Below, piece by piece: positions 41,903-63,156 of a stretch of DNA of 64,000 nt (position 1 is the stretch's first letter; every line of letters begins with the position of its first letter). The notes under the pieces are model-generated. The model was not told the DNA's origin. It made no database searches and saw only the letters and a list, made by a program, of their open reading frames with translations. The position numbers and the translations under genes are program-made. Origin of the DNA: an uncultured Opitutia bacterium (GTDB taxonomy: Bacteria > Verrucomicrobiota > Verrucomicrobiia > Opitutales > UBA953); contig CAMFKE010000005.1 in the NCBI GenBank assembly GCA_945957395.1, positions 64,001 through 128,000 of the forward strand, in the 5' to 3' direction.

Positions 41903-41909
41903 CCGCGCC

Positions 41910-43143: not shown

Positions 43144-43187
43144 AGGCCTCGCGACGCCCCGGCGCGTCGCGGGGCCTTGTCGTTTTT
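43144..43187 (+). terminator. Terminator after argD
   Basis: GGCCTCGCGACGC pairs imperfectly with GCGTCGCGGGGCC, followed by TTGTCGTTTTTG; about 22 bases after the stop. Confidence 0.7.
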
Positions 43188-43277
43188 GTGCTAAGTCGGC
43201 CGCGCGGTCGCGCCCGGCGCAATCGGCGTTGTGCGTCGGCGAAGAGGACGCCACAATCCGGGGCGATACCCCTCCCC

Positions 43278-44540: not shown

Positions 44541-44561
44541 GCCCGCAGGGCGACCGCAGGC

Positions 44562-45074
44562 TCACCAGACGCCCGTCACGGCGTCCTTGATCTGCTTGGC
44601 CAGCTCGCGAGAGACCAGCGGCAGCGTCTGCGACTCGGTGCGCAGGAAACCGTCGTCGGCGTAGGCGGAAAGCCAGGCGCGCACCACGCGGTCCTTCATG
44701 AGCACCTTGCCGTTGCGCGCGTCCACCAGCGTGATTTTCGCGGTGAGCGAAAGCCTGTAGGTGGACGCCTGCACGGTGTCCTTGGGATTCACGGCGGAAA
44801 TTTCGCGACGATACTCGACCAAGGAGACGGAGAGCCTGCCCTGTCCGCCCGAGGGCACCACATGGAGCGCCTTTTCCTGCATCAGCGAATCGGCCAGCTG
44901 CCGGTGGATTTCGGCCTGCATCTGCGGCGCGAAAGTCTCGTTCTTCACCGGTTCGACCGTGATGGACGAAAACGGCGGCTCCCCGCCGGGGCCGAACGCG
45001 TAGTTGCAGCCGGAAACGGCCAACGCGGCCAGCGCGCCGAAGGCGGCGAGACGGAGGCGGAGGCTCGGTTTCAT
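44562..45074 (-). CDS. LptE-like lipopolysaccharide-assembly lipoprotein
   Basis: 170-residue lipoprotein with signal and lipobox (MKPSLRLRLAAFGALAALAVSGC, cysteine at about residue 23). The mature part has the LptE/RlpB pattern: YAFGPGGEPPFSSITVEPVKNETFAPQMQAEIHRQLADSLMQE, that is, a beta strand with VEPVKNET and a helix, followed by STYRLSLTAKITLVDARNGKVLMKDRVVRAW. LptE plugs the LptD barrel that delivers LPS to the outer leaflet. The ATG overlaps the stop of the upstream TPR gene (TGATG), so the two are translationally coupled. The family is divergent, so the assignment is good but not certain. Confidence 0.8.
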   Translation of the reverse strand: MKPSLRLRLAAFGALAALAVSGCNYAFGPGGEPPFSSITVEPVKNETFAPQMQAEIHRQLADSLMQEKALHVVPSGGQGRLSVSLVEYRREISAVNPKDTVQASTYRLSLTAKITLVDARNGKVLMKDRVVRAWLSAYADDGFLRTESQTLPLVSRELAKQIKDAVTGVW

Positions 45075-46222
45075 CACTTGTCGTCGCCGAATCCGGCGGC
45101 GTTCTTGGGCCCGCTCGCGCGCTCGCCGTCGGCGGCCTCGCGGAAGCCCATGGATTCAAGGTTTTGCTGCGACTGCGCGTCCACGAAGTCGCCGGCGTCG
45201 GACTTCGGGTAGCGGCCGAAGATCCAGTCGAGGAGGTTGCGGGGCGGCGGTTCGTCGGCGCGCACCAGGGCGAGCACCTCCTGCGCCTCCTTGGCCGCCG
45301 CGGAATCCGGGGCGACATTGACGGCCTCGTTCAGGAAGATGGCCGCGGCGCGACCGTTGTTGCGCCGGTAGTAGTAGAACTTGCCCAGTTCCAGGCGGTT
45401 GCGCGCCAGCGTGTCGCGCAACTCCAGCACCTTCTGCTGCGCCGCCGGAGCCTGCGGATCCTTCGGGAAAAGGTCCACGAAGTCGCGGTAGTAGTTGAGC
45501 GCGTCGCGCGTGGAACCCTGGTCCCAGTGCGGCCCCATCACGCGACCGGCGTACAGCTCGGCCATCGCGACATAGGCCTTGGGGGTCAGGAAGGAATCCG
45601 GGTAGCGGTAGACCAGGCGTTCGTAGCCGTCGATGGCGTCCTCCTCCTTGTCGATCTCGCGAGCCCACTCGCCCTTCTCATAAAGGGACCAGTCGGCCAT
45701 GGGACCGTAGGGCGCGGCGGCGTTGACCTTGTCAAAGAACTCGAGGGCCTTCTCGTTGTCCTTGAACCAGGGGATCCAGCCCCACAGCCACGGGCGCTCG
45801 CCACGGCGAATGGCCATGGCCACCGCGTACTGCCCCTCGATGACGCGGTCGAAACCGGGGTACTCGGGGTGACGCTCGGGAATGGCGGCGAAGTCCTTGA
45901 ACGCCCGCTCGAACTGGCTGCGGCGCAGGTGGATGACACCCTTCTGATAAAGGGCCTCGGCCTCGTAGTCCGAGCCGGGGAAATCGTCGATGACCTCGTT
46001 GTAGTAGGTGAGCGCCGAATACCAGCTCTCCTCCTCCTGGGCCGCGCGCGCCTTGTTCATCAGGTCCAGCGCGGTCTTGCGCTCCGGCTCGGCGGCCAGG
46101 TCGGCGATGAGCCCGCCTCGCGCCTGCCAGCCCTCCTCGGGCGTCCAGACCAGTTCGGCTCGCGCCGCGAGCGGGGCGAGCGCCAGGGCGGCGAGCGCGA
46201 GAATTCGGGCGGAGACGGTCAT
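45074..46222 (-). CDS. Exported TPR-repeat protein, BamD/YfiO-like
   Basis: 382 residues with a cleavable signal peptide ([22 protein letters not shown]) but no lipobox, and consecutive tetratricopeptide-type helices: AQEEESWYSALTYYNEVIDDFPGSDYEAEALYQKGVIHLRR, then DAIDGYERLVYRYPDSFLTPKAYVAMAELY and DALNYYRDFVDLFPKDPQAPAAQQKV. This resembles BamD-type outer-membrane assembly lipoproteins, though the lack of a lipid anchor means it could be another periplasmic TPR scaffold. The ATG at 46222 is preferred to an upstream in-frame start inside fabH. It is downstream of fabH and overlaps the LptE-like gene by a base, consistent with an envelope-biogenesis operon. Confidence 0.82.
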   Translation of the reverse strand: MTVSARILALAALALAPLAARAELVWTPEEGWQARGGLIADLAAEPERKTALDLMNKARAAQEEESWYSALTYYNEVIDDFPGSDYEAEALYQKGVIHLRRSQFERAFKDFAAIPERHPEYPGFDRVIEGQYAVAMAIRRGERPWLWGWIPWFKDNEKALEFFDKVNAAAPYGPMADWSLYEKGEWAREIDKEEDAIDGYERLVYRYPDSFLTPKAYVAMAELYAGRVMGPHWDQGSTRDALNYYRDFVDLFPKDPQAPAAQQKVLELRDTLARNRLELGKFYYYRRNNGRAAAIFLNEAVNVAPDSAAAKEAQEVLALVRADEPPPRNLLDWIFGRYPKSDAGDFVDAQSQQNLESMGFREAADGERASGPKNAAGFGDDK

Positions 46223-46262
46223 GCGCGGAAAACGGATACGCGAAGGAGAAGGGAGGGAGGGC

Positions 46263-47270
46263 TCAGCGTGCGTCGTGCCACTTGATGAGCGTGGCGCCCC
46301 AGGTGAGGCCGGCGCCGAAGGCGACGAGAAGCACATAGTCGCCATGCTTGAAGCGGCCTTCGCGGTACGCCTCTTCCAGCACCAGCGGGATGGAGGCCGC
46401 CGAGGTGTTGCCGTAGCGGTCGAGATTGATCGGGATGCGGTCCATGCTCACATTGAGCTGCTTGGCCACGGTCTCGATGATGCGCGCGTTCGCCTGATGC
46501 GGCACCACGCAGGTCACCTGGTCGAGGCTCACGCCGCACTTGGCCAGCACCTTCTCGCAGGAGGCCGCCATCACGCGGGTCGCCAGCTTGAAGACCTCCT
46601 TGCCGTTCATGCGGATGAAGTGCTCGCTGTTGGCCACCGTCTCGGGCGTCGCCGGGCGCGCCGCACCGCCCGCGGGGCAGTACAGCAGCTCGGGGTTGGA
46701 GCCGTCGGAGCCCAGCACATTGCCCAGGATGCCCACGTAGGGCTCGTCGCACTTGGAAAGCACCGCCGCGCCGGCGGCGTCGCCGAAGAGCACGCAGGTG
46801 TTGCGGTCCTGCCAGTTCACGAAGCTGGAAAGCTTCTCGGTGCCGACGATGAGAACATTGCGGTAATCACCCGCGCGCAGCATGTGGTGCCCCACCTGCA
46901 GCATGTAAATGAAACCCGAGCAGGCCGCGCCGACATCGAACGCCGGCACCTCCTTGAGTCCCAGCTTGGCCGCCACGAGGCAGGCCGTGGACGGGATCAC
47001 CATGTCGGGCGTCATCGTCGCGCAGATCACCAGGTCGATGTCCTCCTTGGTGAGCCCGGCGCGGGCGATGGCGATCTCGGCGGCCTTCACCGCCATGTCG
47101 GAGGGATTCTCGCCGGGGGCGGCGATGCGACGCTCTCCGATGCCGGAGCGCGTGCGGATCCACTCGTCGGTCGTGTCCACATGCCGGGCAATCTCTTCAT
47201 TCGTGAGTCGGCGCTCGGGCGCATAAGCGCCCAAGCCTCGGATGTAGACGGAGGGAGTCGGAGTTCGCAT
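46263..47270 (-). CDS. fabH: 3-oxoacyl-ACP synthase III
   Basis: Starts fatty-acid synthesis by condensing acetyl-CoA with malonyl-ACP. 335 residues with the full Cys-His-Asn triad: FDVGAACSGFIYML (Cys near residue 117), VVPHQANARIIETVAKQL (His) and NLDRYGNTSAASIPLVL (Asn). The N-terminus TTDEWIRTRSGIGERRIAAPGE is the family substrate-loop region. The ATG at 47270 follows a C-rich tract without a Shine-Dalgarno site. It is first in a minus-strand unit with the TPR and LptE-like genes and is divergent from tRNA-Asn. plsX, its common neighbour, is not here. Confidence 0.96.
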   Translation of the reverse strand: MRTPTPSVYIRGLGAYAPERRLTNEEIARHVDTTDEWIRTRSGIGERRIAAPGENPSDMAVKAAEIAIARAGLTKEDIDLVICATMTPDMVIPSTACLVAAKLGLKEVPAFDVGAACSGFIYMLQVGHHMLRAGDYRNVLIVGTEKLSSFVNWQDRNTCVLFGDAAGAAVLSKCDEPYVGILGNVLGSDGSNPELLYCPAGGAARPATPETVANSEHFIRMNGKEVFKLATRVMAASCEKVLAKCGVSLDQVTCVVPHQANARIIETVAKQLNVSMDRIPINLDRYGNTSAASIPLVLEEAYREGRFKHGDYVLLVAFGAGLTWGATLIKWHDAR

Positions 47271-47365
47271 GGAAGAACCCGGGAGAAAGCCGGAACCGGA
47301 AGCTTTGGGAACAAAAAAAGCCCCCGCCCCGCCGGAGCGCGTTCACAAATTTCTCAAAATCTCCG

Positions 47366-47394
47366 TTGACATACGAAGAACAAACCGCCTTATT
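47366..47394 (+). promoter_or_regulatory. Promoter of tRNA-Asn
   Basis: TTGACA (47366-47371), 17-nt spacer, CTTATT (47389-47394), with an AT-rich upstream patch. The tRNA 5' end is 21 bases further on. Confidence 0.75.
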
Positions 47395-47414
47395 CCGCGA
47401 CCTCGACTCCGAGA

Positions 47415-47489
47415 TGCCCGGTAGCTCAGTGGTAGAGCAGGTGACTGTTAATCACCCTGTCGTAGGTTCAATCCCTACCCGGGCAGCCA
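47415..47489 (+). tRNA. tRNA-Asn (anticodon GTT)
   Basis: Acceptor TGCCCGG with CCGGGCA, D arm GCTC...GAGC with AGTGGTA loop, anticodon stem GGTGA/TCACC around loop CTGTTAA, T arm GTAGG-TTCAATC-CCTAC, discriminator G and an encoded CCA. All stems are complete. Confidence 0.98.
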
Positions 47490-47492
47490 TTT

Positions 47493-47520
47493 AAACCCGC
47501 ACGAAAGTGCGGGTTTTTTT
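47493..47520 (+). terminator. Terminator after tRNA-Asn
   Basis: AACCCGCAC, GAAA loop, GTGCGGGTT, then a run of T, immediately after the tRNA. Confidence 0.9.
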
Positions 47521-47589
47521 GCGCCCCGATTCCCGCCCCAACGCACGCGCGCCCCGCGCGCCCGCTCAAACACTACGCTCCGTGCGCCT

Positions 47590-48771
47590 TCACAGGCGGC
47601 GCAGCGTGCGGTCAAACGCCGGCAGCGCGGCCTCCAGATCGGCCGCGGCGGCGAGCAGACTGACCACCCACCAGGCCTCGTCGGGAGGAAAACCGAAGAA
47701 GTGCCCGGGGTGCAGCGAGACGCCCTCGCGCCGCAGCAGGTCGAGAGCGGAGGCCTCCTCGCCCACACCGCGCGGCAGGCGCAGACAGGCGTACCAGCCG
47801 GCCTCGCGCGGCGCGAGCCGCACCCCGTGACCGGATTCGCGACACCAGGACTCAAGCCGGGCGAAGTTCGCGTCGCACCTCGCGCCGATGGCGTCGCGGC
47901 AGGCGCCGGATTGCTCGAAAATCGCCGGCGCGGCCAGCTGCACGGGCGTGTTCACCGACAGGTAGGTGTCGGCTATGAACTCCAGCCGACGCTTCGCCTC
48001 GCGCCGGAAATCCGACGGACCGGCGACCGCCACCCAGCCCAGCTTCACCTGCGGCAGCGCCGCGATTTTCGAAAAACCGGACAACACGAAGGTCGGCGCC
48101 TGCGCCTCGTCGGCGAAAGTGGCGAGCCGTCCCGCGCCCGCGGCGGGGAAATCCAAAAACACCTCGTCCACGATGAGCGCCAGACCGTGTCGCAGCGCCA
48201 CCCGGCTGAGCGCGGCGCGATCGGCGTCGTCCAGCCCGGAGCCGGTCGGGTTGTTCGGGTTCACGCACAGGATGGCGCGCGCACCCGGCGTGACCGCCGC
48301 GTCCAGGGCGGCCTCGTCCACGCGCCACCCGCCGTCGCGAGCGACCAGCGGGTAGGTCGCCACGCGCACGCACTCCATGGCGCCGAGAAATTCCAGCAGC
48401 GGGTACGAGGGCGTCGGAGCCAGCACGGTGTCGCCCGGGTCGCTCAGCAGCTTCATCAGCCACCCATAACCCTCGCTGGTGCTCGCCGTCAGCACGAGGT
48501 CCTCCGGCGACACCGTCGCGCCGTGGTTGTTTTCATAATACGCGGCCACCGCCTCGCGCGCGCTTCGCAGGCCGCGGGGGTCGGGGTCGTAGCGCACTCC
48601 GTCCGGGTGCGCCAGCGCCCCGCACAGTGCCGCTGGATCCCAGGCGAGCCCGACACGCGAAGGGTTGGCCGCCGTCAGGTCGACGACCGGCAACCCCGCC
48701 TCGCGACGCTCGTGCAGCGCCGCGGACAGCGCGTTCTCCTCCAGACTCCAGGTGAAGCGGCGGGTGAACAT
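47590..48771 (-). CDS. Class I/II pyridoxal-phosphate aminotransferase
   Basis: 393-residue fold-type I aminotransferase. LTASTSEGYGWLMKLLSDPGDTVLAPTPSYPLLEFL is the cofactor phosphate region, CVNPNNPTGSGL holds the conserved Asn, LIVDEVFLDF the Asp that contacts the pyridine ring, and FVLSGFSKIAALPQVKLGW the Schiff-base lysine. The overall pattern is of the aspartate/alanine aminotransferase superfamily; the substrate cannot be assigned from context, since it follows ndk in a translation-linked group. The start at 48771 is reasonable. Confidence 0.88.
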   Translation of the reverse strand: MFTRRFTWSLEENALSAALHERREAGLPVVDLTAANPSRVGLAWDPAALCGALAHPDGVRYDPDPRGLRSAREAVAAYYENNHGATVSPEDLVLTASTSEGYGWLMKLLSDPGDTVLAPTPSYPLLEFLGAMECVRVATYPLVARDGGWRVDEAALDAAVTPGARAILCVNPNNPTGSGLDDADRAALSRVALRHGLALIVDEVFLDFPAAGAGRLATFADEAQAPTFVLSGFSKIAALPQVKLGWVAVAGPSDFRREAKRRLEFIADTYLSVNTPVQLAAPAIFEQSGACRDAIGARCDANFARLESWCRESGHGVRLAPREAGWYACLRLPRGVGEEASALDLLRREGVSLHPGHFFGFPPDEAWWVVSLLAAAADLEAALPAFDRTLRRL

Positions 48772-48840
48772 GGGAAGGGAACGCGGAGCCTCCGACTCGA
48801 AAAAACGGCGCGGCGGCGTCGGCCCCGCGCGCAGCCCGGC

Positions 48841-49254
48841 TCAGACGAGCTCCTCGGGCTTGAAGAAGCGCCGGATTTCGGCGGCGGCGGATTCCGGGGA
48901 ATCCGAAGCGTGCACCACATTCACGGTCGAATCCGTGCCGAGGTCCCCACGGATCGTGCCCGCCGGCGCGTTCTTGGAATTGGTCGGCCCGAGCAGCTCG
49001 CGCACCTTGGCGATAACGCCGGCCCCCTGCAGCACCGCAATGACGACCGGACGCGACGACATGAACGCCTCCAGGCTCGGGTAAAACGGCCTGTCGGCCA
49101 CATGCGCGTAGTGCTCGCGCAGCAGCGCCGGCGACAGACGCGCCATCTTGCACGCCACGATGTCGTATCCGGCCCGCTCAAAGCGGCCCAACACTTCGCC
49201 CACGAGGCGCCGTTCCATGGCGTCGGGCTTGAGGATGATGAGGGTCTTTTCCAT
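48841..49254 (-). CDS. ndk: Nucleoside diphosphate kinase
   Basis: Equilibrates nucleoside di- and triphosphates by a phospho-histidine. 137 residues, full length, from the ATG at 49254 (MEKTLIILKPDAMERRLVGEVLGRFE). Active-site histidine in STVNVVHASDSPESAAAEI; family residues in REHYAHVADRPFYPSL and NAPAGTIRGDLG. An 18-base upstream in-frame start is rejected because family members begin MEKT or close to it. The spacer to rpmE has a terminator, so ndk likely has its own promoter or is partly read through. Confidence 0.97.
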   Translation of the reverse strand: MEKTLIILKPDAMERRLVGEVLGRFERAGYDIVACKMARLSPALLREHYAHVADRPFYPSLEAFMSSRPVVIAVLQGAGVIAKVRELLGPTNSKNAPAGTIRGDLGTDSTVNVVHASDSPESAAAEIRRFFKPEELV

Positions 49255-49332
49255 GCGCCCGGCAGTCCGCACACATTCGCGACGCCGCGCAAGCCGTCTC
49301 CGCGACCGCGTCGCGAACCGCCCCTCCGGGAC

Positions 49333-49364
49333 GCGAAAAAACCCGCCGGTCAGGGCGGGTTTTT
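49333..49364 (-). terminator. Terminator after rpmE
   Basis: AAAACCCGCC and GGCGGGTTTT arms around a short loop, with T-runs on both sides, 28 bases past the rpmE stop on the minus strand. Confidence 0.8.
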
Positions 49365-49391
49365 CCGGGCGTTTCGACTCGGACGCTGCGC

Positions 49392-49643
49392 TTAGGCGCG
49401 GCGACGGGTGAACTTGGAGGTGAACTTCTCCACGCGGCCGGCGGTGTCGACGAAGCGCTTTTCGCCGGTGTAGGCGGGGTGCGAGTCGGCGGTCACATCG
49501 CGCGGGATGACGAAGTATTCCACGCCTTCGATGGTCTTCTTCTCCTTCGACTTGAGGGTCGAGCGGGTGAGAAACTCGCGGCCGGTGGACACGTCGCGGA
49601 AGCAGACGAGGTTGTACTCGGGATGAATGGATTCCTTCGACAT
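49392..49643 (-). CDS. rpmE: 50S ribosomal protein bL31, type B
   Basis: 83 residues; family landmarks SKESIHPEYNLVCFRDVSTGREFLTRST and ADSHPAYTGEKRFVDTAGRVEKFTSKF. It has one cysteine only, without the zinc-binding cysteine pairs of the type A form, so it is the zinc-free paralogue. In some bacteria such paralogues are induced under zinc limitation by Zur; no Zur-box-like palindrome is visible upstream here, and this may be the sole housekeeping copy. rpmJ precedes it in the same direction. Confidence 0.96.
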   Translation of the reverse strand: MSKESIHPEYNLVCFRDVSTGREFLTRSTLKSKEKKTIEGVEYFVIPRDVTADSHPAYTGEKRFVDTAGRVEKFTSKFTRRRA

Positions 49644-49689
49644 GACGAAAAAGGTCTCGGTTGGTGGTTACGGTGATCGCTCGCCCGAA

Positions 49690-49815
49690 TTAGCCCTGAC
49701 GGGCCTTGTAGCGGGGGTGGGTCTTGTTGATCACATAGACGCGACCCTTGCGGCGCACGACCTGGCAATTCGGGTGGCGCTTCTTGAGCGACTTGAGGGA
49801 GGGGCTGACTTTCAT
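49690..49815 (-). CDS. rpmJ: 50S ribosomal protein bL36
   Basis: 41 residues: [18 protein letters not shown] then [23 protein letters not shown]. This is the bL36 pattern with one cysteine instead of four zinc ligands, again the zinc-free type. The ATG at 49815 and TAA at 49690 bound a gene short enough to be missed by length filters. It lies 46 bases upstream of rpmE; the pairing of zinc-free bL31 and bL36 is typical of this variant. Confidence 0.95.
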
Positions 49816-49878
49816 GGCGGTGCCGTTCGTTGTTAAATTTTTGAGAGGGGCGGACGAAAGGTGCCCCCCCGGGGTGTG

Positions 49879-50307
49879 TCAACGGGATTTTTGTTTTTTT
49901 ACAGGAGGGCCGCCCGGCGAGGCGCGTCGGCGCTTGGGGCGCGGCTCGACACCCAGGCGCGGATCGTCGGACAAAACCAATCCGACCAGGGCGCTCGCCA
50001 CGCGCTCGAACGCCGGGTGTTCGCAGGAAATGTAGAGCCACTTGCCCAGCACCGGGTGGCTCGTGAGTTCGGGAAACTCGCCCAGCAGGGCGTCGTGACG
50101 GTCGCGCGAGGTGCACGCGCACACGCCGTTCCACGGCTCGTCGTCCTCCCCGGTGAGCAAAAGGCGCAGCGTCCCCTTCCTATAGAAGGCGGAGCACCCG
50201 AACATGCGCCGCTCCTCGACATCCGTGTGCTCCAGCAGCAGGTCGGATAGCCAGGGCCAGGGCGTGGGGCGGCGCGGGCCTGCGCCGGGCATGTCGAAAC
50301 GGGGCAT
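49879..50307 (-). CDS. TfoX-N-terminal-like small protein
   Basis: 142 residues. VEERRMFGCSAFYRKGTLRLLLTGEDDEPWNGVCACTS recalls the RMFGG-type strand of TfoX N-terminal domain proteins, and the region LTSHPVLGKWLYISCEHPAFERVASALVGLVL is consistent with that small alpha/beta fold. The C-terminal 25 residues are basic and probably disordered (KRRRASPGGPPVKKQKSR). There is no TfoX C-terminal domain, so a role in competence is not implied. It precedes rpmJ with 63 bases between. Confidence 0.65.
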   Translation of the reverse strand: MPRFDMPGAGPRRPTPWPWLSDLLLEHTDVEERRMFGCSAFYRKGTLRLLLTGEDDEPWNGVCACTSRDRHDALLGEFPELTSHPVLGKWLYISCEHPAFERVASALVGLVLSDDPRLGVEPRPKRRRASPGGPPVKKQKSR

Positions 50308-50411
50308 GGTTTCTTATAAGGGAAAGACGGAACGCGCCCCCACTCAGCCTCCCACCCCGCGCCGTGTCCAGTCCCGCCTCCCGTCATCCGCCAATTTGCT
50401 AAAAAATTCTT

Positions 50412-50440
50412 TTGACAGCCAAGGGCGAGAGCGCCTTCTT
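50412..50440 (+). promoter_or_regulatory. Promoter of tRNA-Leu
   Basis: TTGACA (50412-50417), 17-nt spacer, CTTCTT (50435-50440), preceded by an AT-rich stretch (AATTTGCTAAAAAATTC). The tRNA starts 45 bases after the -10 element. Confidence 0.65.
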
Positions 50441-50484
50441 CGCAGCCCTTCACCGGCGGCAACGCTGGACCGAAGAACTCGATT

Positions 50485-50568
50485 GCTCAGGTGGTGAAAT
50501 GGCAGACACGCTAGATTCAGGTTCTAGTGCCGCGAGGCGTAAGGGTTCAAGTCCCTTCCTGAGCACCA
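50485..50568 (+). tRNA. tRNA-Leu (anticodon CAG)
   Basis: Class II tRNA: acceptor GCTCAGG/CCTGAGC, anticodon stem CTAGA/TCTAG around loop TTCAGGT, long variable arm TGCCGCGAGGCGT, T arm AGGG-TTCAAGT-CCCT, discriminator A, encoded CCA. Confidence 0.98.
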
Positions 50569-50575
50569 ATCGATA

Positions 50576-50610
50576 CCCCGCGAACCGCCAAGGTCCGCGG
50601 GGTTTTCGTT
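50576..50610 (+). terminator. Terminator after tRNA-Leu
   Basis: CCCCGCG (50576-50582) with CGCGGGG (50596-50602), then TTTTCGTTT. Confidence 0.8.
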
Positions 50611-50696
50611 TCCCCGTTTCCTCGAAAAAAGAATCGCACCGCGTCGGGGCAACGGAACCCGCGCAAGGAAAGCGTGTCACAAGCAGGCATTCCCCT

Positions 50697-53567
50697 ATGC
50701 CCCGCACCGCCTCGCCCCTCCCGCTGACGACCCTCGCCCTCCTGGCCGCAGCCCCCCTCCTCCACGCCCAGCGCGTCGACCCGCTCAGCCTCGGGCAGTC
50801 CCCGCGCGAGACCTTCCTGCTCGACCGCGACTGGAAGTTCAACCGGGGCGACATCGTGCTACCCCAGGCCACCGACCACCACGAGGTGTACACCCTGTCG
50901 AAAGCCGGCAACGCGCGCGGCCCCGCCGGCATGAAGTGGGACGACGCCAACTGGCAGCGTGTGAATGTGCCGCACGACTATGTGATCGACAGCAAGTTCA
51001 CCGCGTCCGAACCGATTTCGCACGGATTCCTCCCCCGCCCCGTCGGCTGGTACCGCCGCCAGTTCAAACTCGACCCGACCGACCGCGCCAAGACGGTGTG
51101 GCTCTACTTCGACGGCGTCATGGGCCGCTCCCGCATCTGGGTGAACGGCCAGGAGCTCAAGCAGACGGAAAACGGCTACATCGGCTTCCGCGTGAACATC
51201 TCGGATGTCGCCCACTACGGCGACACGCCCAACACCGTCGCCATCCGCACCGACCCCACCGAACCCACCGGCTGGTGGTACGAGGGCGGCGGCATCTACC
51301 GCCATGTCTGGCTCACCAAGGCCGACCCCGTGCATGTCGCGCCCCACGGCGTCTTCGCCGACCCGCGCCGGGACTCCGGCGACCGCTGGATTACCCGCCT
51401 CGAAACCCGCGTGGAAAACGAGACCGACGCCGACGCCAGGGTGCGCGTGCTCTCCACGATCTTCGACGCCGCCGGCAAGCGCGTCGCCTCGGCCGAGGAC
51501 GAGTTCACCGCCAAGGCCGGCGACACCACGCCGCTGGAGCAGAAGCTCGCCGTCACCGCCCCGGCCCTCTGGAGCACGGATACGCCCACGCTGCACCGCG
51601 TGCGCACGGAAATCTTCCGCGACGGCAAAAAGGTGGACGAGGTCGGCACCTACTTCGGTTTCCGCACCCTCGATTTCACGCCCGACAAGGGCATCTTCCT
51701 CAACGGCAAGCCGCTCAAACTGAAGGGCGTCTGCAACCACCAGGACCACGCCGGCGTGGGCGTGGCCGTGCCCGACGCCATCCAGGAATTCCGCCTCGCG
51801 CGCATGAAGCAGATGGGCGTGAACGCGCTGCGCTGCTCGCACAACCCGCCCGCCCCCGAGGTGCTCGACGCCTGCGACCGGCTCGGACTCGTGGTGATGA
51901 ACGAAAACCGCTTCTACAACAGCGGCGACATCTACCTCGAGCAGCTCCACGAGCAGACGCTGCGCGACCGCAACCACCCTTCCGTCATCATGTGGTCGCT
52001 CTTCAACGAGGAGCCCTGGCAGGGCGACGAACGCGGGCGCAAGATGGTGGAGCGCATGAAGCGCACCATCCGGAAACTGGATACCTCGCGCCCGGTCACC
52101 GGCGCCATGAACGGCGGCTTCAACAAGGAGGGCGCCTTCAACACCGTCGACATCATCGGCATCAACTACTTCCTCGGCGTGCACGACCGGGCGCACAAAC
52201 TCGTGCCCGACAAACATGTCTACGGCTCCGAGAATGTCTCCCACTTCGCCACCCGCGGCGAGTGGCGCACCGACAACGCCAAGAAGACCTTCGATAATTA
52301 CGACAAGCATTGCGCCGGCTGGGGCTCCAATGTGCGCGACGCCTGGAAACATGTCGCCCAGCGCGAGTGGGACGGCGGCATGTTCATCTGGACCGGCTTC
52401 GACTACCGAGGCGAGCCCACCCCGCACGCCTGGCCCGTCATCAGCTCCTACTTCGGCATCGTCGACACCTGCGGCTTCGCCAAGGACTCCTTCCACCTCT
52501 GCCGCGCCCTCTGGACGGAGAAGCCCATGGCGCATGTCTTCCCCCACTGGAACCTCGGCGACGACATGGTCGGCAAGCCGGTCAAGGTCGGCGTCTACAC
52601 CAACGGCGACGAGATCGAGCTGCTCCTCAACGGCAAGGTCGTGGTCCCACGCCGCAAGGCCGACCGCTTCGACCAGACCTTCGTCGATGTGCCCTACGCG
52701 CCCGGCAAACTCGAGGCGCGCACCTACAAGGACGGCAAACCCCACGCCTCCGCCTCAGTCGAGACCACCGGCCAACCCGTCGCCCTCGGCGTCGAGGTGA
52801 AGTTCGACGACTGGCGGCGCACCGATGCGCGCACCGGCGCCGGCGACGCGCTCCCGGTCGCCGTGTACGCGGTGGACGCCCGGGGCCGCCGCGTGCCCAC
52901 CGCCGCCGACAAGGTCTCGTTCCTCGTGGACGGCGGCAGCGTGCTGGGCGTGGGCAACGGCGACCCGCTCTGCCACGAGCCCGACCGCGCCGCCTCCCGA
53001 TCCCTCTTCAACGGCTACGCCTGCGCCATCGTCGAGCCCGCCGACGCCGCCAAAACCTTGCGCGTGCGCGTCAGCGCGCCCGGCCTGCGCCCCGCCGAGC
53101 TCGCGCTGCCCGTGAGGCCGGCCGCGTTCGTCACGCCGCAGTACCCGGCCGTGGACAACGCCCTCGTGCTCTCCGCCTGGCGCCTCTCCGCCGTCACCGC
53201 CGAGCGGCAGGACCCGAACCGCCGCATCGCCGACAACGACATGAACACCTGGGAGCCCGTGACCGCCGGCGCCGCGCCCTTCGCCCCGCTCGAAGGGAAA
53301 TCCGGATACGCCTCCGTTCGCACCGACTTCGACATGCCCGCCGGCGACACCCCGCGCGAACTCGTGTTCGGCGGCATCGCGGGCGCGGCCGAGGTGTATG
53401 TGAACGGCAAGAAGGTCGCCGAGAAATCGGATATGGCCGAGAAGCCCCTACGCGCCCCGGTCGAGGCCGCGCCGGGCTCGAAGGTCGTCGTCTCCGTGCT
53501 CCTGCGCGGCGACGGCTCCGCCACGCCGGGCTTCGTCAAAAGCGTGCGCCTCCAAGCCGCCAAGTGA
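50697..53567 (+). CDS. GH2-family beta-galactosidase, exported
   Basis: 956-residue secreted glycosidase. A signal peptide ([24 protein letters not shown]) is followed by the GH2 sugar-binding domain ([44 protein letters not shown]). Then come the immunoglobulin-like domain and the TIM barrel ([50 protein letters not shown]). The acid/base Glu is E438 in WSLFNEEPW and the likely nucleophile is E512 in [11 protein letters not shown]-terminal domains resemble those of Bacteroides-type beta-galactosidases (DUF4982-like, plus a galactose-binding-like end). It heads a pair with the GH95 gene 8 bases downstream. I found no ACGT in this gene. Confidence 0.92.
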
Positions 53568-53575
53568 TCCGCCCC

Positions 53576-55921
53576 ATGAAACGCCCCTTCGCCGCCCTCG
53601 CGCTCGCCCTCGCGCTCGCCCCGCTCGCCTGCGCCGCCACGCGTGAATCGCTCATCGTGTTCGACCGACCCGGACAAAAGTGGGAGGCCGAGGCGCTCCC
53701 CTTGGGCAACGGCCGGCTGGGCGCCATGCTCTTCGGCGGCACCGCCTCCGACCGCATCCAGTTCAACGAAAACACCCTCTGGACCGGCGACGCGAACCCC
53801 TCCGGCGGCTACGCCTACGGCGAGGACAAGAAGAACATCTTCGGCTGCTACCAGAACTTCGGCGACCTCTTCGTCGACTTCGAGGGCGCCGCCGCGCCCG
53901 CCCCGGCCGTCACCGGCTACCGGCGCGAGCTCAACCTCGCCAGGGCCGTCTGCACCACCGCCTTCTCCAAGGCCGGCGTGAAATTCACCCGCGAGGCCTT
54001 CGCCTCCGCCGCCGACCCGGTGATCGTCCTGCGCTACACCGCCGACAGGCCCGGCGCCCACTCCGGCGTCATCCGCCTCAAGGACGGCCGCGCCAACCCC
54101 ACGCTCGCCCAAGGCGACACGCTCAGCGCCCCGGGCAAACTCGCCAACGGCCTCGCCTACGAGAGCCGCGTGCGGGTGCTCCACGACGGCGGCTCCGTCG
54201 CCGCCAAGGGCGACACGCTCGAGTTCAAGGGCTGCACCACGCTCACCCTCATCCTCGGCGCGCGCACCAACTATGTGCCCGACCCCTCCAAAAACTGGAC
54301 CTGCGGCACCGCCTCCGAACGCCTCGACGCCGACTTCGCCTCCGCGCTCAAGCCCTACGCGCGCCTGAAGGCCGACGCCGAAAAGGCCCACCGCGCCTAC
54401 ATGGACCGCGTCTCGCTCGACCTCGGCGACACCCCCGCCGACATCCGCGCCCTGCCCACCCCGCAGCGCATCAAAGCCTACCGCCAGGGCGGCTCCGACC
54501 CGGACCTCGAGGAGGACCTTTTCAACTTCTCCCGCTACCTGCTCATCGGCTCCTCCCGCGGCTCGCTCCCCGCCACGCTCCAAGGCCTGTGGAACGACAG
54601 CAACAAGCCCGCCTGGGCCTGCGACTACCACAACAACATCAATGTGCAGATGTGCTACTGGGGCGCCGAACCCCTCGGCCTTCCCGAGATGGCCTCGCCT
54701 CTCGTCGACTATGTCCTCGCCCAGGCACCGGGCTGCCGCTCCGCCGTCCTCGCCGACAAGCGCCAGTTCCCCAGGCCCGTGCGCGGATGGACCGCCCGCA
54801 CCTCGCAAAACATCATGGGCGGCAACGGCTGGGAGTGGAACCTGCCCTCCTCCGCCTGGTACATGCAGCACCTCTGGGACCACTACGCCTTCTCCCGCGA
54901 CAAGACCTACCTCGCCAAGGTCGCCTTCCCCGCCATCCGCGAGGCCTGCGACTTCTGGGAGGACAACCTCAAGGCCCTCGACGCCGACGGCGCCAACTTC
55001 TTCACCGACGACAAAAAGGCCGACCGCTCCGCGCTGAAAGGCCTTCCCGCCGGCACCCTCGTCGCCCCGCGCGGCTGGTCCCCCGAGCACGGCCCTCACG
55101 AGGACGGCGTCGCCCACGACCAGCAGATCCTCCACGACCTCTTCTCCAACGCCGAACTCGCCGCGCGCGAACTCGGCGACACCGCCTACGCCGAGAAAAT
55201 CGGCGCTCTGCGCGAGCGCCTCGCGCCCCCTCGCATCGGCCGCTGGGGCCAGTTGCAGGAATGGATGATCGACCGCGACGAACCCTCCGACACCCACCGG
55301 CACACCTCGCAGCTCTTCGCCGTCTACCCCGGCCGCAGCATCAGCCTCACCAAGACCCCGGCCCTCGCCCGCGCCGCCACCGTCTCCCTCAAGGCCCGCT
55401 CCAACGACAGGGACGGCCAACCCTTCACCGCCCACACCACCATCGCCGATTCCCGCCGCTCCTGGACCTGGGCCTGGCGCTGCGCCCTGTGGGCCCGCCT
55501 CGGCGACGGCGACCGCGCCGCCACCATGGTGCGCGGCCTCGTCACGCACAACCTGCTCGACAACCTCTTCGCCACCCACCCGCCCTTCCAGATCGACGGC
55601 AACCTGGGCATCGGCGCCGGCATGGCCGAGATGCTCCTGCAGTCCCACGCCGACGAGCTTCACCTGCTTCCCGCCCTCCCCGCCGCCTGGCCCGCCGGCT
55701 GCGTCCGCGGCCTGCGCGCCCGCGGCGCCTTCATCGTCAACATCACCTGGAAGGACGGCAAACTCGCCGCCGCCGACATCACCTCGCTCGCCGGCGAACC
55801 CCTGCGCCTGCGCACCGGCGTGCCCGTGAGCGTCTCCGGCGCCGACGCGCGGCCCGACGCCGACGGCGTGATCCGCTTCGCCACGCGCAAGGGCGCCACC
55901 TACCGGATCGTCGCGCGCTGA
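53576..55921 (+). CDS. GH95-family alpha-L-fucosidase, exported
   Basis: 781 residues with a signal peptide ([20 protein letters not shown]). GH95 enzymes remove alpha-1,2-linked fucose (some act on alpha-L-galactose) by inversion. N-terminal domain: [31 protein letters not shown]. Catalytic (alpha/alpha)6 barrel: [32 protein letters not shown], which carries the family Asn/Asp residues, [21 protein letters not shown] and [24 protein letters not shown]. The C-terminal barrel end includes [23 protein letters not shown]. It starts 8 bases after the GH2 stop and is co-transcribed. Exact linkage specificity cannot be read from sequence. Confidence 0.93.
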
Positions 55922-55940
55922 GGCGCCCGCGCGCGCGGCC

Positions 55941-56999
55941 TCACCGCGGCGGCCCCAGCGAACGCCCGGGCACCCACTCCGGCGCGATCATCTGCCGTCG
56001 CGGCGGCGCCCCGCGCTCCGCCGCCGCGAGCGCCTCGGCCACCGCCTCCGCCAGCTCGCGCACGGGCAGCCGGAAATGCGCCGGCGTGGGCGTGGCCGAT
56101 TCCCACTCGGGCGCCGAGCACAGGCACAGCAGCGACATGTCGCGGGGCAGGCGCAGCCCGGCCTCGCCCAGCACGCCCACCGTGCCCAGCCATTGCGCGA
56201 AATCGCTCGCCACCAGCGCCGTGGGCGGCGTGTGCCGGAGCAGTTCGCGCAGCGTGCGGTGCAGCGCCTGCGGATCGCGCCCCTCCGCCTCCGGAGCGTC
56301 GAACCGGGGCGAGTGGCTGTATCCGTGCCGGGCATACTCGTCGGCCATCCACGCGCGCACGCTCGCCGCCACCTCCGGCCGCCGCCGCCACAGCGGGAAC
56401 GACACGCGCCGGTGCCCCGCCTCGAACGCCTTCCTCAGCGCCCCGCGCACCAGCAGCTCGTGCGACACCGCCACCTGCGAGGCCGTGCCGGTGTCCCCCG
56501 TGGTGCCCGCCGCCACCACCACGCGCCCCGCCCGCGCCAGCGCCGCCACCACCGCCGGGGCGTGGTCCATGGCCACCACGCGCCGGCACCCGGTCTCCAG
56601 CACGCGCTCCACCACCCGCCCCGCCATGTCGTCGCCCGCCGGCAGGCTCAGGCGCAGCACCGGGCCCGGCAGCGCCGCCTCCAGCGCCAGCAGGATCTCG
56701 CGGTGGTCGCCCGTGCGCCGCTCCAGCGGGTCGGCGTGCAGCACCACCGTGCCCTCCCTCGGCGCGCCCGCGCCGCCCGCGACGACCTCCGGCGCGCGCC
56801 GGCCGCCGGCGAGCGTCAGCACGCCCGCGCTCTCGAGCTGCCCGAGAGCCGCCTCCACGCAGGTGCGCGTGACGCCGAAGCGCTCCATCAGCCGGCGTAT
56901 GCCCGGCAGCCGCCCGGCGTACTCGCCGGCGTCGATGCGCCGACGGATCTCCTCCGCCAGCTGGTGCGGCTCGCTCTTGGGCCTGAAGGGCGTTTCCAT
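55941..56999 (-). CDS. GntR-type DNA-binding, LacI-type sensor transcription regulator
   Basis: 352 residues. An N-terminal winged helix-turn-helix of the GntR type (EPHQLAEEIRRRIDAGEYAGRLPGIRRLMERFGVTRTCVEAALGQLESAGVL, residues 10-65) is fused to a periplasmic-binding-protein-like effector domain as in LacI/GalR and AraR proteins (residues about 85-330, with VVAMDHAPAVVAALARAG, AGHRRVSFPLWRRR and TALVASDFAQWLGTVGVLGE). It is convergent with GH95 and divergent from GH101 and is expected to control the glycan genes; the effector is presumably a released sugar. An inverted repeat abuts its own start codon. Confidence 0.85.
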   Translation of the reverse strand: METPFRPKSEPHQLAEEIRRRIDAGEYAGRLPGIRRLMERFGVTRTCVEAALGQLESAGVLTLAGGRRAPEVVAGGAGAPREGTVVLHADPLERRTGDHREILLALEAALPGPVLRLSLPAGDDMAGRVVERVLETGCRRVVAMDHAPAVVAALARAGRVVVAAGTTGDTGTASQVAVSHELLVRGALRKAFEAGHRRVSFPLWRRRPEVAASVRAWMADEYARHGYSHSPRFDAPEAEGRDPQALHRTLRELLRHTPPTALVASDFAQWLGTVGVLGEAGLRLPRDMSLLCLCSAPEWESATPTPAHFRLPVRELAEAVAEALAAAERGAPPRRQMIAPEWVPGRSLGPPR

Positions 57000-57021
57000 G
57001 CTGTGCCATTTTCAACACAGC
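57000..57021. promoter_or_regulatory. Candidate operator between the regulator and GH101
   Basis: GCTGTG (57000-57005) and CACAGC (57016-57021), a perfect 6-bp inverted repeat with a 10-nt spacer, begins directly upstream of the regulator start codon and 107 bases before GH101. Its position suits autoregulation and repression of the divergent gene. Confidence 0.55.
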
Positions 57022-57127
57022 GTACCTTTGGCAAGTCCTCGAAACGCCCGCGCCACTATGTTTCTCACGCCTGCGCGCGGAACCGCGCACTCCCCGGTCG
57101 GTCCTCACTCCTTCCAACTCCGCCACG

Positions 57128-60100
57128 ATGTCCAAGCTCAACTCCCTTTCCTCGCCCTTCGCGGCGGCCGCCGGCCTTCTGGTCTACGCCTCCGCACTGG
57201 CCGCCACGCCCGACCCCCTCGTCCTGCGCAGCGACGCGCTCGCCGTGAACCTCGCGACCGACTTCCCGCGCGTACTCCAATACACCTGGACCGGCTCCGG
57301 CGCCACCCTCTCCGGCGAGACCGGCGCCTTCTCCAAGGTCGCCATCACCACCTTCAAGGACGCCACCGACGGCCTGCGCTCCGAGCCCACCACGGCCAAC
57401 CCGGATTTCGTCGCCGTGAAGACCGCCGACATGACCCGCGAGTACGCCCCCAAGGTGACCGTGCGCCTCGTCGACCCCGCCAAGGCCCTCTACACCCTCA
57501 CCGTCCCCGAGCTCGGCGTCGAAATCGGCGTCTCCGTTTCCGTGGTGAAAAACACCGTCACGCTGGCGCTGGAGAGCGTGACCGGCGAAGGCGCCGCCAA
57601 GGTGCGCTATGTCGACTTCCCCGGCATGAACCTGGTGAGCGTGAGCTCCGCCGAACCCGGCGCCGCCGTCGCCAACGCCCGCGTGGGCATCGGCCAAAAG
57701 TCCCAGCCCGAGGACTTCCTCAAGCTCGTCGACATGCCCGCCGACAAGAAGGCCGTCGAGTGCACCTACGCCATCGTCAACACCGACAGGCTCGCCGCCA
57801 CGGTCTACAACAATGTGCAGAACAACAAGGCCCGCCTCCTGCGCCGCACCGTCGAGACCGGCGGCGTCAAGGTCGCCGGCATCGCGTCCAACGCCATGAC
57901 CTGGCGCGAGGTGCCCAACGAGCAGTTCGAGAAATCCTTCGCCACCGTCATCATCGCGCCCGACCTCAACGACGACAAAACCGTCGACTGGCAGGACGCC
58001 GCCATCGCCTACCGCCGCGTCGCCACGCCCCCCATGGGCGCCGAGCTCACGCCCGACCGCGTGGTCTCCCAGATCTCCATGAACATGGCCAGCTGGGCCC
58101 AAAACCCCTTCCTGCGCACCCTCGACGACCTCAAGAAGGTCTACCTGCTCACCGACGGCCTCCACCAGGATGTCCAGTTCAAGGGCTACGCCGGCGAAGG
58201 CCATGACTCCTCCCACCCCGACTACGGAGGCAATGTCAACCGCCGCGCCGGCGGCGCCGAGGCCCTCAACTTCGTCATGAAGCGCGCCAAGGACTTCAAT
58301 GTCCTCAGCGGCATCCACATCAACGCCACCGAGTACTACCCGGACGCCAACAACTTCGCGCTCGACCTGGTGAACCTCGACAAGCGCGGCTGGGCCTGGA
58401 TGGACCAGTCCTACCTCGTCGACAAGCGCTACGACATCACCTCCGGCAAGCTCTACGCGCGCCTCGACGAGATGAAGAAGACCCTCCCGTCCCTCGACTG
58501 GGTCTATGTCGACGTCTACTGGGGCGAAGGCTGGGACGCCTACAAGCTGGCCTCCAAGATCAACGCACTGGGCTACCCCATGTACACCGAGTTCGAAGGC
58601 CAGGTGGAGCGCCACATCACCTGGAGCCACCGCTCCCAGGACTGGGCCCAGGCCGTCTGGGGCGACGGCCTCTACTCCAAGATCGGCCGCTTCATCCAGA
58701 ACCACCAGAAGGATGTCTGGACGCACAGCCCCCTCCTGCGCGGCAGCCAGAACGACGGCTTCCTCGGCTGGCACTCCCAGCGCGACCTGCGCCACTTCAC
58801 CCGCTCCGTCTTCACCACCAACCTGCCCTCCAAGTACCTCCAGCACTTCGAGATCCTGAAGCTCTCCGACCGCGAGGCCCTCCTCACCGGCGGCGTGCGC
58901 GCCACCTTCGACAACGGCGTCGCCAAGATCTTCCGCAACGGCAAGCTCCTCAACAGCGCCACCTACGCCAAGGACAAGAGCGCCCCCGTGGACAACAGCA
59001 TGCTGCTGCCCTGGGAGCCCAAGAACCCCTCCAAGGCCTACCACTGGAACGACAAGGGCGGCCTCTCCACCTGGGAACTCCCCGAGGAATGGAAGGGCCT
59101 CTCCAGCGTGAAGCTCTACAGGCTCACCGACATCGGCCGCACCTTCGTCGCCGACCTCCCCGTCTCCAAGGACGGCAAGGTCGACATCGACGCCCTCCCC
59201 GCCACCCCCTATGTGGTCTACAAGGACGCCGCCCCCGCCCTCCCCGCCATCGAGTGGGGCGAAGGCTCCCTCGTGAAGGAACCCGGCTTCGACAGCCACG
59301 CCTTCAACACCTGGCGGCTCAACGACGCCGCCCGCGCCCCCGGCGCCAAGGTCGAGATCGTCAACGACGCCAAGGGACAGACCCACCTCACCGTCGCCGG
59401 CGCCCACGACCTCGCCCCCGGCGTCTCCCAGACGCTCAAGCTCACCCCCGGCAAGTGGTACTCCGCCTCCGTCTGGGTCGAGATCGCCGGCGAGCGCCCC
59501 GCCTCCCTCACCGTCTCCTGCGACGGCAAGGTCCTCGGCGAAGCCTCCGTGTCGAAGACCTCCTTCACCAACTTCTCCGACAACTTCTCCAAGTACCTCA
59601 CCCGCTACCAGCGCATCGTCACCGTCTTCCAAATGCCCGAAGGCAAGAGCGAGGCCACCCTCGCCCTCGCCGCCGGCCGCATCGCCTCCAAGCCCGCCGC
59701 CACCGTCATGGAATCCGGCGAGGCCCTCCTGCGCGACGACATGCGCTTCCCCGTCGAGACCGTCAACGAGGTGCGCGTCAACTTCGACGATGTCCGCCTC
59801 GTCGAGTGCAAGCCCCGCGACTTCAAGGGCCACACCTTCTTCGAAGACTTCGAAAACGTCGACGAAGGCTGGGGTCCCTTCGTCTACGGCTACCAGGGCG
59901 AGATGCGCACCCACCTCTCCCAGACCAACAAGCCCCACACCGACGACACCCTCGACGGCGAGTTCTCCCTCAAGAGCTTCGACGAGAACGACGGCCTGAA
60001 CTTCCGCACCCTCCCCGGCCGCCTCCCGTTCAAGCCCAAAACCAAGTACCGCGTCGCCTTCGACTACCTCAGCCGCAACGACTCCCAGTACTCCGTCACC

Positions 60101-60379
60101 ATCGCCTCCGACGAAGGCGGCATCGGCGCCACCAAGCTCTTCGCCGCCCTCCCCGGCGACAGCCTGTCCCGCCGCCGCGCCTCCTTCGAGTTCACCACCG
60201 GCGACCACCCCGATTACTACATCGGCTTCGTGAAGAACTTCTCCCTTCCCGAACTCTCCAAGGACGAACTCAAGAAACTCGGCAAAACCTGGGTCGACCG
60301 CCGCGCCCTCCTCGTCCTCGACAACCTCGCCGTCGACGAGCTCAAGGACGAACCCGCCAAGGACTCCCCCAAGCCCTGA
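57128..60379 (+). CDS. GH101 endo-alpha-N-acetylgalactosaminidase
   Basis: 1083-residue exported enzyme. GH101 releases the Gal-beta-1,3-GalNAc disaccharide from serine/threonine of mucin-type glycoproteins with retention. Signal peptide (MSKLNSLSSPFAAAAGLLVYASALA), N-terminal beta-sandwich (to about 280), then the barrel with KGYAGEGHDSSHPDYGGNVNRRAGGAEALN, GIHINATEYYPDANNF, WVYVDVYWGEGWDAYKLA (D462, candidate nucleophile) and YPMYTEFEG (E488, candidate acid/base). NHQKDVWTHSPLLRGSQNDGFLGW and FTTNLPSKYLQHFEILKL complete the core. The C-terminal 450 residues are beta-rich carbohydrate-binding-like modules. The known enzymes are longer (up to about 2000 residues), so this is a compact member. 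The regulator is divergent upstream. Confidence 0.93.
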   Translation: MSKLNSLSSPFAAAAGLLVYASALAATPDPLVLRSDALAVNLATDFPRVLQYTWTGSGATLSGETGAFSKVAITTFKDATDGLRSEPTTANPDFVAVKTADMTREYAPKVTVRLVDPAKALYTLTVPELGVEIGVSVSVVKNTVTLALESVTGEGAAKVRYVDFPGMNLVSVSSAEPGAAVANARVGIGQKSQPEDFLKLVDMPADKKAVECTYAIVNTDRLAATVYNNVQNNKARLLRRTVETGGVKVAGIASNAMTWREVPNEQFEKSFATVIIAPDLNDDKTVDWQDAAIAYRRVATPPMGAELTPDRVVSQISMNMASWAQNPFLRTLDDLKKVYLLTDGLHQDVQFKGYAGEGHDSSHPDYGGNVNRRAGGAEALNFVMKRAKDFNVLSGIHINATEYYPDANNFALDLVNLDKRGWAWMDQSYLVDKRYDITSGKLYARLDEMKKTLPSLDWVYVDVYWGEGWDAYKLASKINALGYPMYTEFEGQVERHITWSHRSQDWAQAVWGDGLYSKIGRFIQNHQKDVWTHSPLLRGSQNDGFLGWHSQRDLRHFTRSVFTTNLPSKYLQHFEILKLSDREALLTGGVRATFDNGVAKIFRNGKLLNSATYAKDKSAPVDNSMLLPWEPKNPSKAYHWNDKGGLSTWELPEEWKGLSSVKLYRLTDIGRTFVADLPVSKDGKVDIDALPATPYVVYKDAAPALPAIEWGEGSLVKEPGFDSHAFNTWRLNDAARAPGAKVEIVNDAKGQTHLTVAGAHDLAPGVSQTLKLTPGKWYSASVWVEIAGERPASLTVSCDGKVLGEASVSKTSFTNFSDNFSKYLTRYQRIVTVFQMPEGKSEATLALAAGRIASKPAATVMESGEALLRDDMRFPVETVNEVRVNFDDVRLVECKPRDFKGHTFFEDFENVDEGWGPFVYGYQGEMRTHLSQTNKPHTDDTLDGEFSLKSFDENDGLNFRTLPGRLPFKPKTKYRVAFDYLSRNDSQYSVTIASDEGGIGATKLFAALPGDSLSRRRASFEFTTGDHPDYYIGFVKNFSLPELSKDELKKLGKTWVDRRALLVLDNLAVDELKDEPAKDSPKP

Positions 60380-60701
60380 TCCCACGCCGGAGCGCACGCC
60401 CACCGTGCGCCCCTTCCCACACCGCGCCGCCGAGCTCCACGCCCGGCGGCGCGGCCGTTTCCACCCAACCCGCCGGAGCGCGGGCGTCCCCGCCCGCTTC
60501 GAAATCCCTGCCGGAAGGCGGGCGTCCCCGCCCGCCCTTTTCAGCTCCATCACGCTCGCTTATGCCAATTCACAACAGCACACATTCCCTTCGACCTGGC
60601 CGAAAAATTTCCCACCACATGCCGCTCCCCCATAATAATTCTGCAATAATCTTCTACCCTACCCCCACAGATGTCCCACCCCACCCGATAATTTCCATGG
60701 C
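60380..60701. other. Intergenic region between GH101 and cas3
   Basis: 322 bases without a gene. The first half is GC-rich and holds a pair of direct repeats with hairpins (listed separately). The second half turns AT-rich (60545-60690, with several AATAAT and TAATAATT stretches), unlike the rest of the window, and probably contains the cas operon promoter. No CRISPR repeats are present here. Confidence 0.6.
60472..60541 (+). repeat. Two direct repeats with hairpins, possible GH101 terminator
   Basis: Two near-identical 26-27-bp copies (60472-60497 and 60510-60536), starting 38 bases apart. Each contains a GCGGGCG...CGCCCGC stem around TCCC. The second is followed by CTTTTC and could terminate GH101 transcription. 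Copies elsewhere in the genome would show whether it belongs to a dispersed family. Confidence 0.6.
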
Positions 60702-63104
60702 ATGATTTTCTACGGCCACACACACCCTGATTTCCCCTCCGATCCGGCCCGTTGGGAACCCCTGACCGAGCACCTCCATCTTGTCGCGGGGAAGGCGGCC
60801 TCCTTCGCCGAGCGCTTCGGCTGCGAGGAATTGGCAAAGGCCCTGGGCGTCTGGCACGACTTCGGGAAATTCTCCGAGGCGTTTCAAGCGTACCTCCAAG
60901 CCTCTCAGGGCGACACCGAGGAAGGCGACGGCGCGGTGAAGCGCGGGCGCGGACCGGACCACTCCACCGCCGGCGCTCGATTCGCGGCCAAATCCAAATC
61001 CGGACTCGGGCACCTGCTCGCCTATGCCATCGCCGGCCACCATTCGGGCCTCGCCGACGGCCTGGCGATCCATCCCGGAGTCGCCCGGGAATCCACGCTC
61101 GAGCACCGCCTTAAGCAGACCGACATCGAAGAGTGGGAAAAGGGCGCCCGCGACACCTTGCCGCCGGAATGGTTCACCGCGCCGCTCCCTGACAAGTCGC
61201 ACGCCAAGTTCCTGGAAACCGGCTACGCCGCCTCCTTCTGGGTCAGAATGATGTTCTCGTGCCTCGTGGACGCCGACTTCCTCGCCACCGAAGCGTTCAT
61301 GAACGCGGCGCAAAGCAGGGTGCGTAAGAGCACCACGCCACCCGCGCTGGCCGAGCTTGAAGCCCGTCTCGACGCCTACATGGCCCAAAAGCAGGCGAAA
61401 CTGACCCAAGCCCAACGCGCCGATTCGCCGGTCAACCGCATCCGCGCCGAAGTTCGCTCCGCCTGCCTGAGCGCGGCCGAGCAATCCCCGGGCCTTTTCT
61501 CGCTCACCGTACCCACGGGCGGCGGCAAGACCCTCGCCTCTCTCGCCTTCGCCCTGAAACAGGCGCGACTGCACGGGCTCGAGCGTGTCGTGTATGTGAT
61601 CCCGTTCACGAGCATCATCGAGCAGAACGCCGCCGTTTTCCGCGACGCGCTGGGCGACGAGGCCGTGCTGGAGCACCACAGCAATTTCGACCACGAATCC
61701 GCCGACGACGCCTCGCCCGACGCGAAGCGCCGCGCCTGGCAGACCAAGCTGGCCACGGAGAACTGGGACGCGCCGCTCGTCGTCACCACCGGCGTGCAAT
61801 TCTTCGAGTCGCTGCATGCGCACAAACCGTCGCGCTGTCGCAAACTGCACAACCTGGCGAAGTCCGTCATCATCCTCGATGAGGCTCAGACGTTGCCCGT
61901 GCCCTTGCTCCAGCCCTGCCTGCGCGCCCTCGAACAACTGGCGAAAAACTACGGCTCCACCGTCGTGCTGTGCACCGCCACCCAGCCGGCCATCGGCAAA
62001 CGGGACAACTTCCCCTGCGGCCTCGAGGGCATTCGGGAAATCATCCCGCAATCGTTGAACCTGCATGAGAACCTGCGACGGGTCGCCATAGAACGCATCC
62101 CGGAGCCGATGACCGATGACGCCCAGGTCTCGCGACTGCTCGGCGAGCGGCAGGTGCTGTGTGTGGTGAATACGCGTCGTCACGCTCGCGAGCTGTTCGA
62201 AAAACTTCGCGCCGCCTCCGGCGAATCCACCGGCACGCCCGCCGGCGACCGCACCGCATACCACCTCAGCGCGCAGATGTGCCCGGCGCACCGCACGGAG
62301 ATTCTTGCCGAGGTGCGCCGACGCCTCGCCGCCGGAGATCCCTGCAAACTCGTTTCCACCCAGCTCATCGAGGCGGGCGTGGATGTGGATTTCCCGGCCG
62401 TCTACCGCGCACTTGGCGGGCTCGACGCCATCGCGCAGGCCGCCGGACGCTGCAACCGCGAAGGGCGCCTCGCCGCCCCCGGCCGCGTGTTCGTCTTCGT
62501 CTCCGCCGAGCACAAGACGCCGGCCGGCTTCCTGCGCCAGACCGCCGACACCGCGCACGAAGTGCTCGGCCTCCCCGAATTCGCCGACGACGCGCTCTCG
62601 CCCGCCGCTTTGGAAAAATACTTCCGGCTGCTCTACTGGCGGAACTTTTCGCCCGATGCGGCTCTCGACCGAACCAACTTCGTCAAACTCGCCGGCGGCG
62701 ACGGCGCGCGCCGCGCGGTCGTCGGCGAGCTGTTGCCACGCGACCGTCCGAAATCCCCCGACGATTGCCTGACCTTCTCCTTCCGCACCCTGGGCGAGAA
62801 CTTCCGGCTCATCGAAGAAAGCTCGGAAGCCGTCATCGTGCCCTACGGCGACACCGGCCACGACCTCGTCGAAGCGCTGCGCGCCGCCTATGCGCCGTCC
62901 GAGCGAATGAAGCTGCTGCGCAAGCTCCAGCGCTACGCCGTCTCCATCCCCAAACCGGTTTTCGCCAAGGCCGTCGCCGACGGACGGATACACAAAGTTC
63001 ACGACTCCGTCGCCGTCCTGGTCTCGCCGGAACTGGCCTACTCATCCGACTTCGGCGTCGCCCTCGGCGACCGCGATGGCGCTGCCGTATTGCTGTCTCT
63101 GTAA
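60702..63104 (+). CDS. cas3: CRISPR-associated helicase-nuclease Cas3, type I-C
   Basis: Nuclease-helicase that degrades target DNA after Cascade binding. 800 residues: N-terminal HD domain with [14 protein letters not shown] (HD near residue 52) and IAGHHSG, then the SF2 helicase with Walker A VPTGGGKT (near 270), [11 protein letters not shown], the box DEAQ in place of DEAD/H (near 394), LCTATQP and [10 protein letters not shown] (motif VI). The DEAQ form and fused HD-helicase layout are usual for type I-C. The start at 60702 follows an AT-rich upstream region. cas5 follows after 52 bases. All motifs look intact. Confidence 0.95.
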
Positions 63105-63156
63105 GCTGGCTGCGCCCGGATCATCTCCTTCGTCTCCTATCTCCCATCACTCACCC

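Follow-up and report, generated by a model that had tools for sequence, protein, structure and literature searches.

Genome-wide avoidance of the tetranucleotide ACGT in an uncultured Opitutia bacterium, a pattern that looks like restriction-site avoidance

Orthodox Type II restriction-modification (R-M) systems cause avoidance of their recognition sites, and systems that have been lost leave such avoidance too (Rusinov et al. 2015, PMC4687349). Helicobacter pylori avoids ACGT, the HpyCH4IV site, with observed-to-expected ratios (O/E) of 0.11 in multilocus data and 0.05 in the whole genome (PMC3849833), while phages purge recognition sites, the avoidance being weaker in temperate phages (Rusinov et al. 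2018, PMC6286503). The genome described here avoids the same tetramer as H. pylori with similar strength (0.16), and shares with Type II R-M avoidance a short palindromic target, a genome-wide and lineage-specific distribution and the limitation to one word. In contrast with H. pylori, where the ACGT enzyme is named and several sites are avoided, ACGT is here the only strongly avoided restriction-type palindrome, in a GC-rich genome with strong codon bias, and no cognate R-M pair was found in this genome. Site avoidance as a kind, and that of ACGT itself in H. pylori, are known already; what this genome adds is a set of frame-based tests, an estimate of what each site costs, and avoidance without a matched enzyme. 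As an example of site avoidance it is clean and quantifiable: reading frames tell avoidance apart from mutation driven by methylation, a test usable for other avoided words, and the pattern predicts an ACGT-specific system to be sought in this lineage.

Avoidance was followed from a glycoside hydrolase block in the window, i.e., the whole 64,000-nucleotide stretch of DNA analysed, whose relevant features are:

1..64000, no strand: whole window, 23 ACGT against 159 expected, the lowest among 256 tetramers
5956..6699, + strand: pyrH (TIGR02075 pyrH_bact), 0 ACGT
9048..10712, - strand: rpsA, 30S ribosomal protein S1 (NF004952, TIGR00717), an exception with 8 ACGT
50412..53567, + strand: GH2 beta-galactosidase (GalA-type) gene (NF041462 GalA and Pfam GH2 domains), first part of the block, 0 ACGT
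53564..55921, + strand: GH95 gene (Pfam Glyco_hydro_95_cat, E 1.2e-123), second part of the block, 0 ACGT

A preliminary description had claimed that ACGT is nearly absent, with about 14 copies predicted and none seen in the GH2-GH95 block, and that Asp-, Asn-, Tyr- and His-Val pairs are written there with T-ending codons. Positions 50697-55921 indeed contain no ACGT against 13.9 expected from base composition and 13.2 from a second-order Markov model. When synonymous codons were swapped within each gene over 2000 rounds, the GH2 and GH95 genes were expected to carry 16.7 +/- 2.1 ACGT (minimum 10; observed 0) and 5.3 +/- 1.3 ATGT (observed 18). The codon usage is also as described, Asp, Asn, Tyr and His codons ending in T in 15/15 cases before GTN and in C in 96/97 cases before other G-codons, because T is the sole silent way out of ACGT at these pairs. 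The avoidance ascribed to pyrH is equally borne out. Outside the block, on the other hand, the site is rare rather than absent: most called genes of the window have 0 or 1 ACGT, and 8 of its 23 sites fall inside rpsA.

The avoidance is real and extends over the whole genome, from which about 85% of the expected ACGT copies are missing (919 against 5859, O/E 0.16, the lowest of 256 tetramers, followed by CTAG at 0.26; 2.38 of 2.79 Mb counted, with about 0.4 Mb, mainly on contig C3, left out). The comparison with a codon-preserving shuffle proposed in the preliminary description gives, over 464 kb, 99 ACGT against 809 +/- 15 (O/E 0.12, Z -46), whereas ACGC (1.17) and GCGT (1.06), whose equal depletion would have refuted the claim, lie together with ACGA, ACGG, TCGT and CCGT at 0.98-1.17. 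Words one mismatch away from ACGT all reach 1.08-1.42. Since all 16 NACGTN contexts are depleted (0-0.21), the avoided unit is the bare 4-mer, and a search of the genome for a second avoided palindrome of 4-6 bases found none comparable to it.

Among 20 sampled genomes of the same family, 18 have ACGT at 0.67-1.24, so that within the family the avoidance appears confined to this lineage; the other two are lower in short samples (0.36 and 0.46), with rpoB regions at 0.63 and 1.15. Whole-genome counts of GACGTC against a reversed control amount to 164/724 in this genome, and of 19 other genomes 18 have a ratio of 0.54 or more. A class-level relative (G211), with 50 GACGTC against 403 for the reversed control, is lower still and may likewise avoid ACGT. 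In a sister genus (g3; G010-G017), several genomes strongly avoid GGCC and GTAC instead of ACGT.

The strong codon bias serves as a yardstick, against which each ACGT can be assigned a cost of about 4 log-odds units. When the next codon is GTN instead of another G-codon, the log-odds of NAC versus NAT fall by 3.8-4.25 in seven of the eight classes of codon adaptation and by 2.8 in the lowest class. The shift is smaller (-2.1 +/- 0.4) in the top 20 genes by codon adaptation, where a ceiling in the baseline may be responsible. The penalty per site is thus roughly constant over codon-adaptation classes, and under mutation-selection balance each site would be subject to scaled selection of about 4. 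As an additive per-site penalty entails, rpoB (15/17.2), EF-Tu (9/9.5) and rpsA (8 against 9.8 expected; 0/8/0 by frame) keep near codon-shuffled numbers of ACGT, exclusively across the NAC|GTN boundary, i.e., highly expressed genes retain the site only where avoiding it would require a poor codon. An origin of ACGT-rich spots as foreign islands was rejected, since many of them are highly expressed genes with ACGT in NAC|GTN only.

Avoidance of a restriction or methylation target, one of two causes offered in the preliminary description, is backed by the exact 4-mer, the genome-wide extent, the lineage specificity, the additive codon-level signature, the depletion in all frames and in intergenic DNA, and an ACGT-free prophage. 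In all probability ACGT is avoided because the site costs fitness slightly, the agent most likely being an ACGT-specific restriction endonuclease of an orthodox Type II R-M system, long resident in the lineage. We infer that such an enzyme would occasionally cut incompletely protected chromosomal ACGT sites, each of which would then carry a small fitness cost and tend to be lost by selection; the genome would be methylated at ACGT now or have been so formerly.

An ACGT-specific R-M pair was not found with PF00145, PF01555, PF02384, PF02086 and PF07669 over all contigs of this genome, which is 96% complete, nor could a methyltransferase (MTase) of that specificity, for which the preliminary description had proposed a search, be pointed to. 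PF01555 and PF02086 MTases are lacking from the genome, which has five m5C MTase genes (PF00145) and two Type I HsdM genes. Three loci were considered individually:

C2:48930-51875: AT-rich island with a cassette (L009) of Dcm MTase, HEPN and DUF262/GmrSD proteins
C2:353656: HpaII-type MTase (P0001), isolated, with a fatty-acid cyclopropane synthase-like gene on one side and priA on the other
C8:18920-20922: MTase and DUF4928 protein, a candidate R-M pair whose site is not tied to ACGT

The Dcm-HEPN-DUF262 cassette was rejected on account of six plasmid relatives with similar recognition domains, five of which have ACGT at 0.86-1.18; a Campylobacter coli plasmid with a relative has 0.28. Klebsiella, Polaromonas and Phaeobacter plasmids carry annotations of the same trio. 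Relatives of the HpaII-type MTase adjoin HpaII-family (PF09561) or BsaWI-like nucleases, together with Vsr, and as these nuclease families have a CCGG core, CCGG is its likely core too, leaving it a poor ACGT candidate. This MTase family (L027-L106) is common in Bacteroidota, with an HpaII-family or BsaWI-like nuclease and often Vsr. The two closest relatives of the DUF4928 pair occur in genomes without ACGT loss and are accompanied by proteins that, read by eye, look like GIY-YIG; a DUF4928-like neighbour is present in the GACGTC-poor G211 (50/403), and also in G187, G256 and G205, which are not GACGTC-poor. To judge from these related sequences, the pair is not favoured as the ACGT system. 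The XhoI-type pair on C12, the MmeI-like enzyme on C1 and the two Type I HsdM genes were set aside as belonging to families with another kind of site.

The enzyme pair may have been lost, or its genes may sit in the 4% of the genome that the assembly lacks. This variant of the best explanation, in which the avoidance would be the trace of an ACGT R-M system that has recently gone or is merely absent from the contigs, has a reasonable chance of being correct, though somewhat short of even: it fits the fruitless search, the incompleteness of the genome and the avoidance traces described for such systems (PMC4687349), while some native 20-kb stretches at ACGT 0.02-0.07 imply that any loss would have to be recent, and a nuclease of an undescribed family might instead lie beside one of the MTases of this genome. 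That the agent is an ACGT-targeting defence outside the described Type II pairs, e.g., an undescribed nuclease with an m5C MTase such as the DUF4928 pair, appears unlikely.

The second cause offered in the preliminary description, deamination of a methylated cytosine, fares much worse. An orphan m5C MTase would here produce A(m5C)GT, which would decay to ATGT or ACAT with no selection on the site, and the five PF00145 genes, the excess of ATGT (1.42; 1.86 under the codon shuffle) and ACAT (1.25) over 464 kb, and 97 ACAT against 61.7 expected in the prophage are all compatible with it. The coding ATGT excess, however, lies in NAC|GTN, where no silent escape other than T exists. In the xxA|CGT frame both deaminations alter the amino acid, and this frame is still depleted 7-9 fold (O/E 2/47 in the codon shuffle over 464 kb), CGT making up 0.013 of CGC+CGT after A versus 0.09-0.12 after C, G or T. 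Among Thr codons, ACG falls to 1.3% before T from 34.4% elsewhere, and the gain goes to ACC (60.3% to 86.4%) while ACA is steady at 3-4%; relative to ACC, ACA before T is at 0.83 of its value elsewhere, whereas three control families rise to 1.4-1.7. Finally, intergenic DNA is depleted in ACGT (34/233 = 0.15) with no rise of ATGT (0.79) or ACAT (0.89). Taken together, the frame, product and intergenic tests favour selection against the site over m5C deamination, so that the cause looks like selection against a DNA site, i.e., restriction avoidance, and decay of a methylated cytosine is very improbable. Selection at the level of RNA or translation against ACGU, whether through an enzyme that cleaves mRNA or through codon-pair effects, is scarcely credible, for although the codon-level signal is strong and strand cannot tell RNA from DNA selection on a word that is its own reverse complement, intergenic depletion is equal (0.15), all three frames are affected, and highly expressed genes show the weakest depletion rather than the strongest.

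Restriction as the source of the avoidance also bears on resident phage DNA, examined in one element:

C2:168187-202500: prophage of 34 kb with integrase, head protein, DnaB helicase and terminase

It contains 0 ACGT against 74 expected, and no other palindrome is nearly so low in it; 34-kb windows across the genome have a median of 0.137, and C2:354-393 kb is the only other stretch equally devoid of the site. This resembles the elimination of sites by phages (PMC6286503), but that study reports weaker avoidance in temperate phages while this prophage has none of the sites at all; the absence fits restriction pressure on phage DNA and could also reflect long residence, both arrival and residence being possible origins. 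The 41 CRISPR spacers contain 0 ACGT, an absence that says little as only 2.1 are expected. Their array (C5:132961-135603; repeat GTCGCCCCCTCACGGGGGCGCGGATTGAAAC) lies about 5 kb beyond the window end.

Neither the head protein of the prophage nor the terminase-like protein of a prophage on C4 found relatives in viral contigs. Among viral contigs with a related terminase (L278-L357), 32/80 are almost without ACGT, and many are also almost devoid of AGCT, CCGG, CGCG, GATC, GCGC or CATG; in one of them (L283), seven palindromes occur 0-6 times each where 43-88 would be expected. The scale of this multi-site purging merits a separate study.
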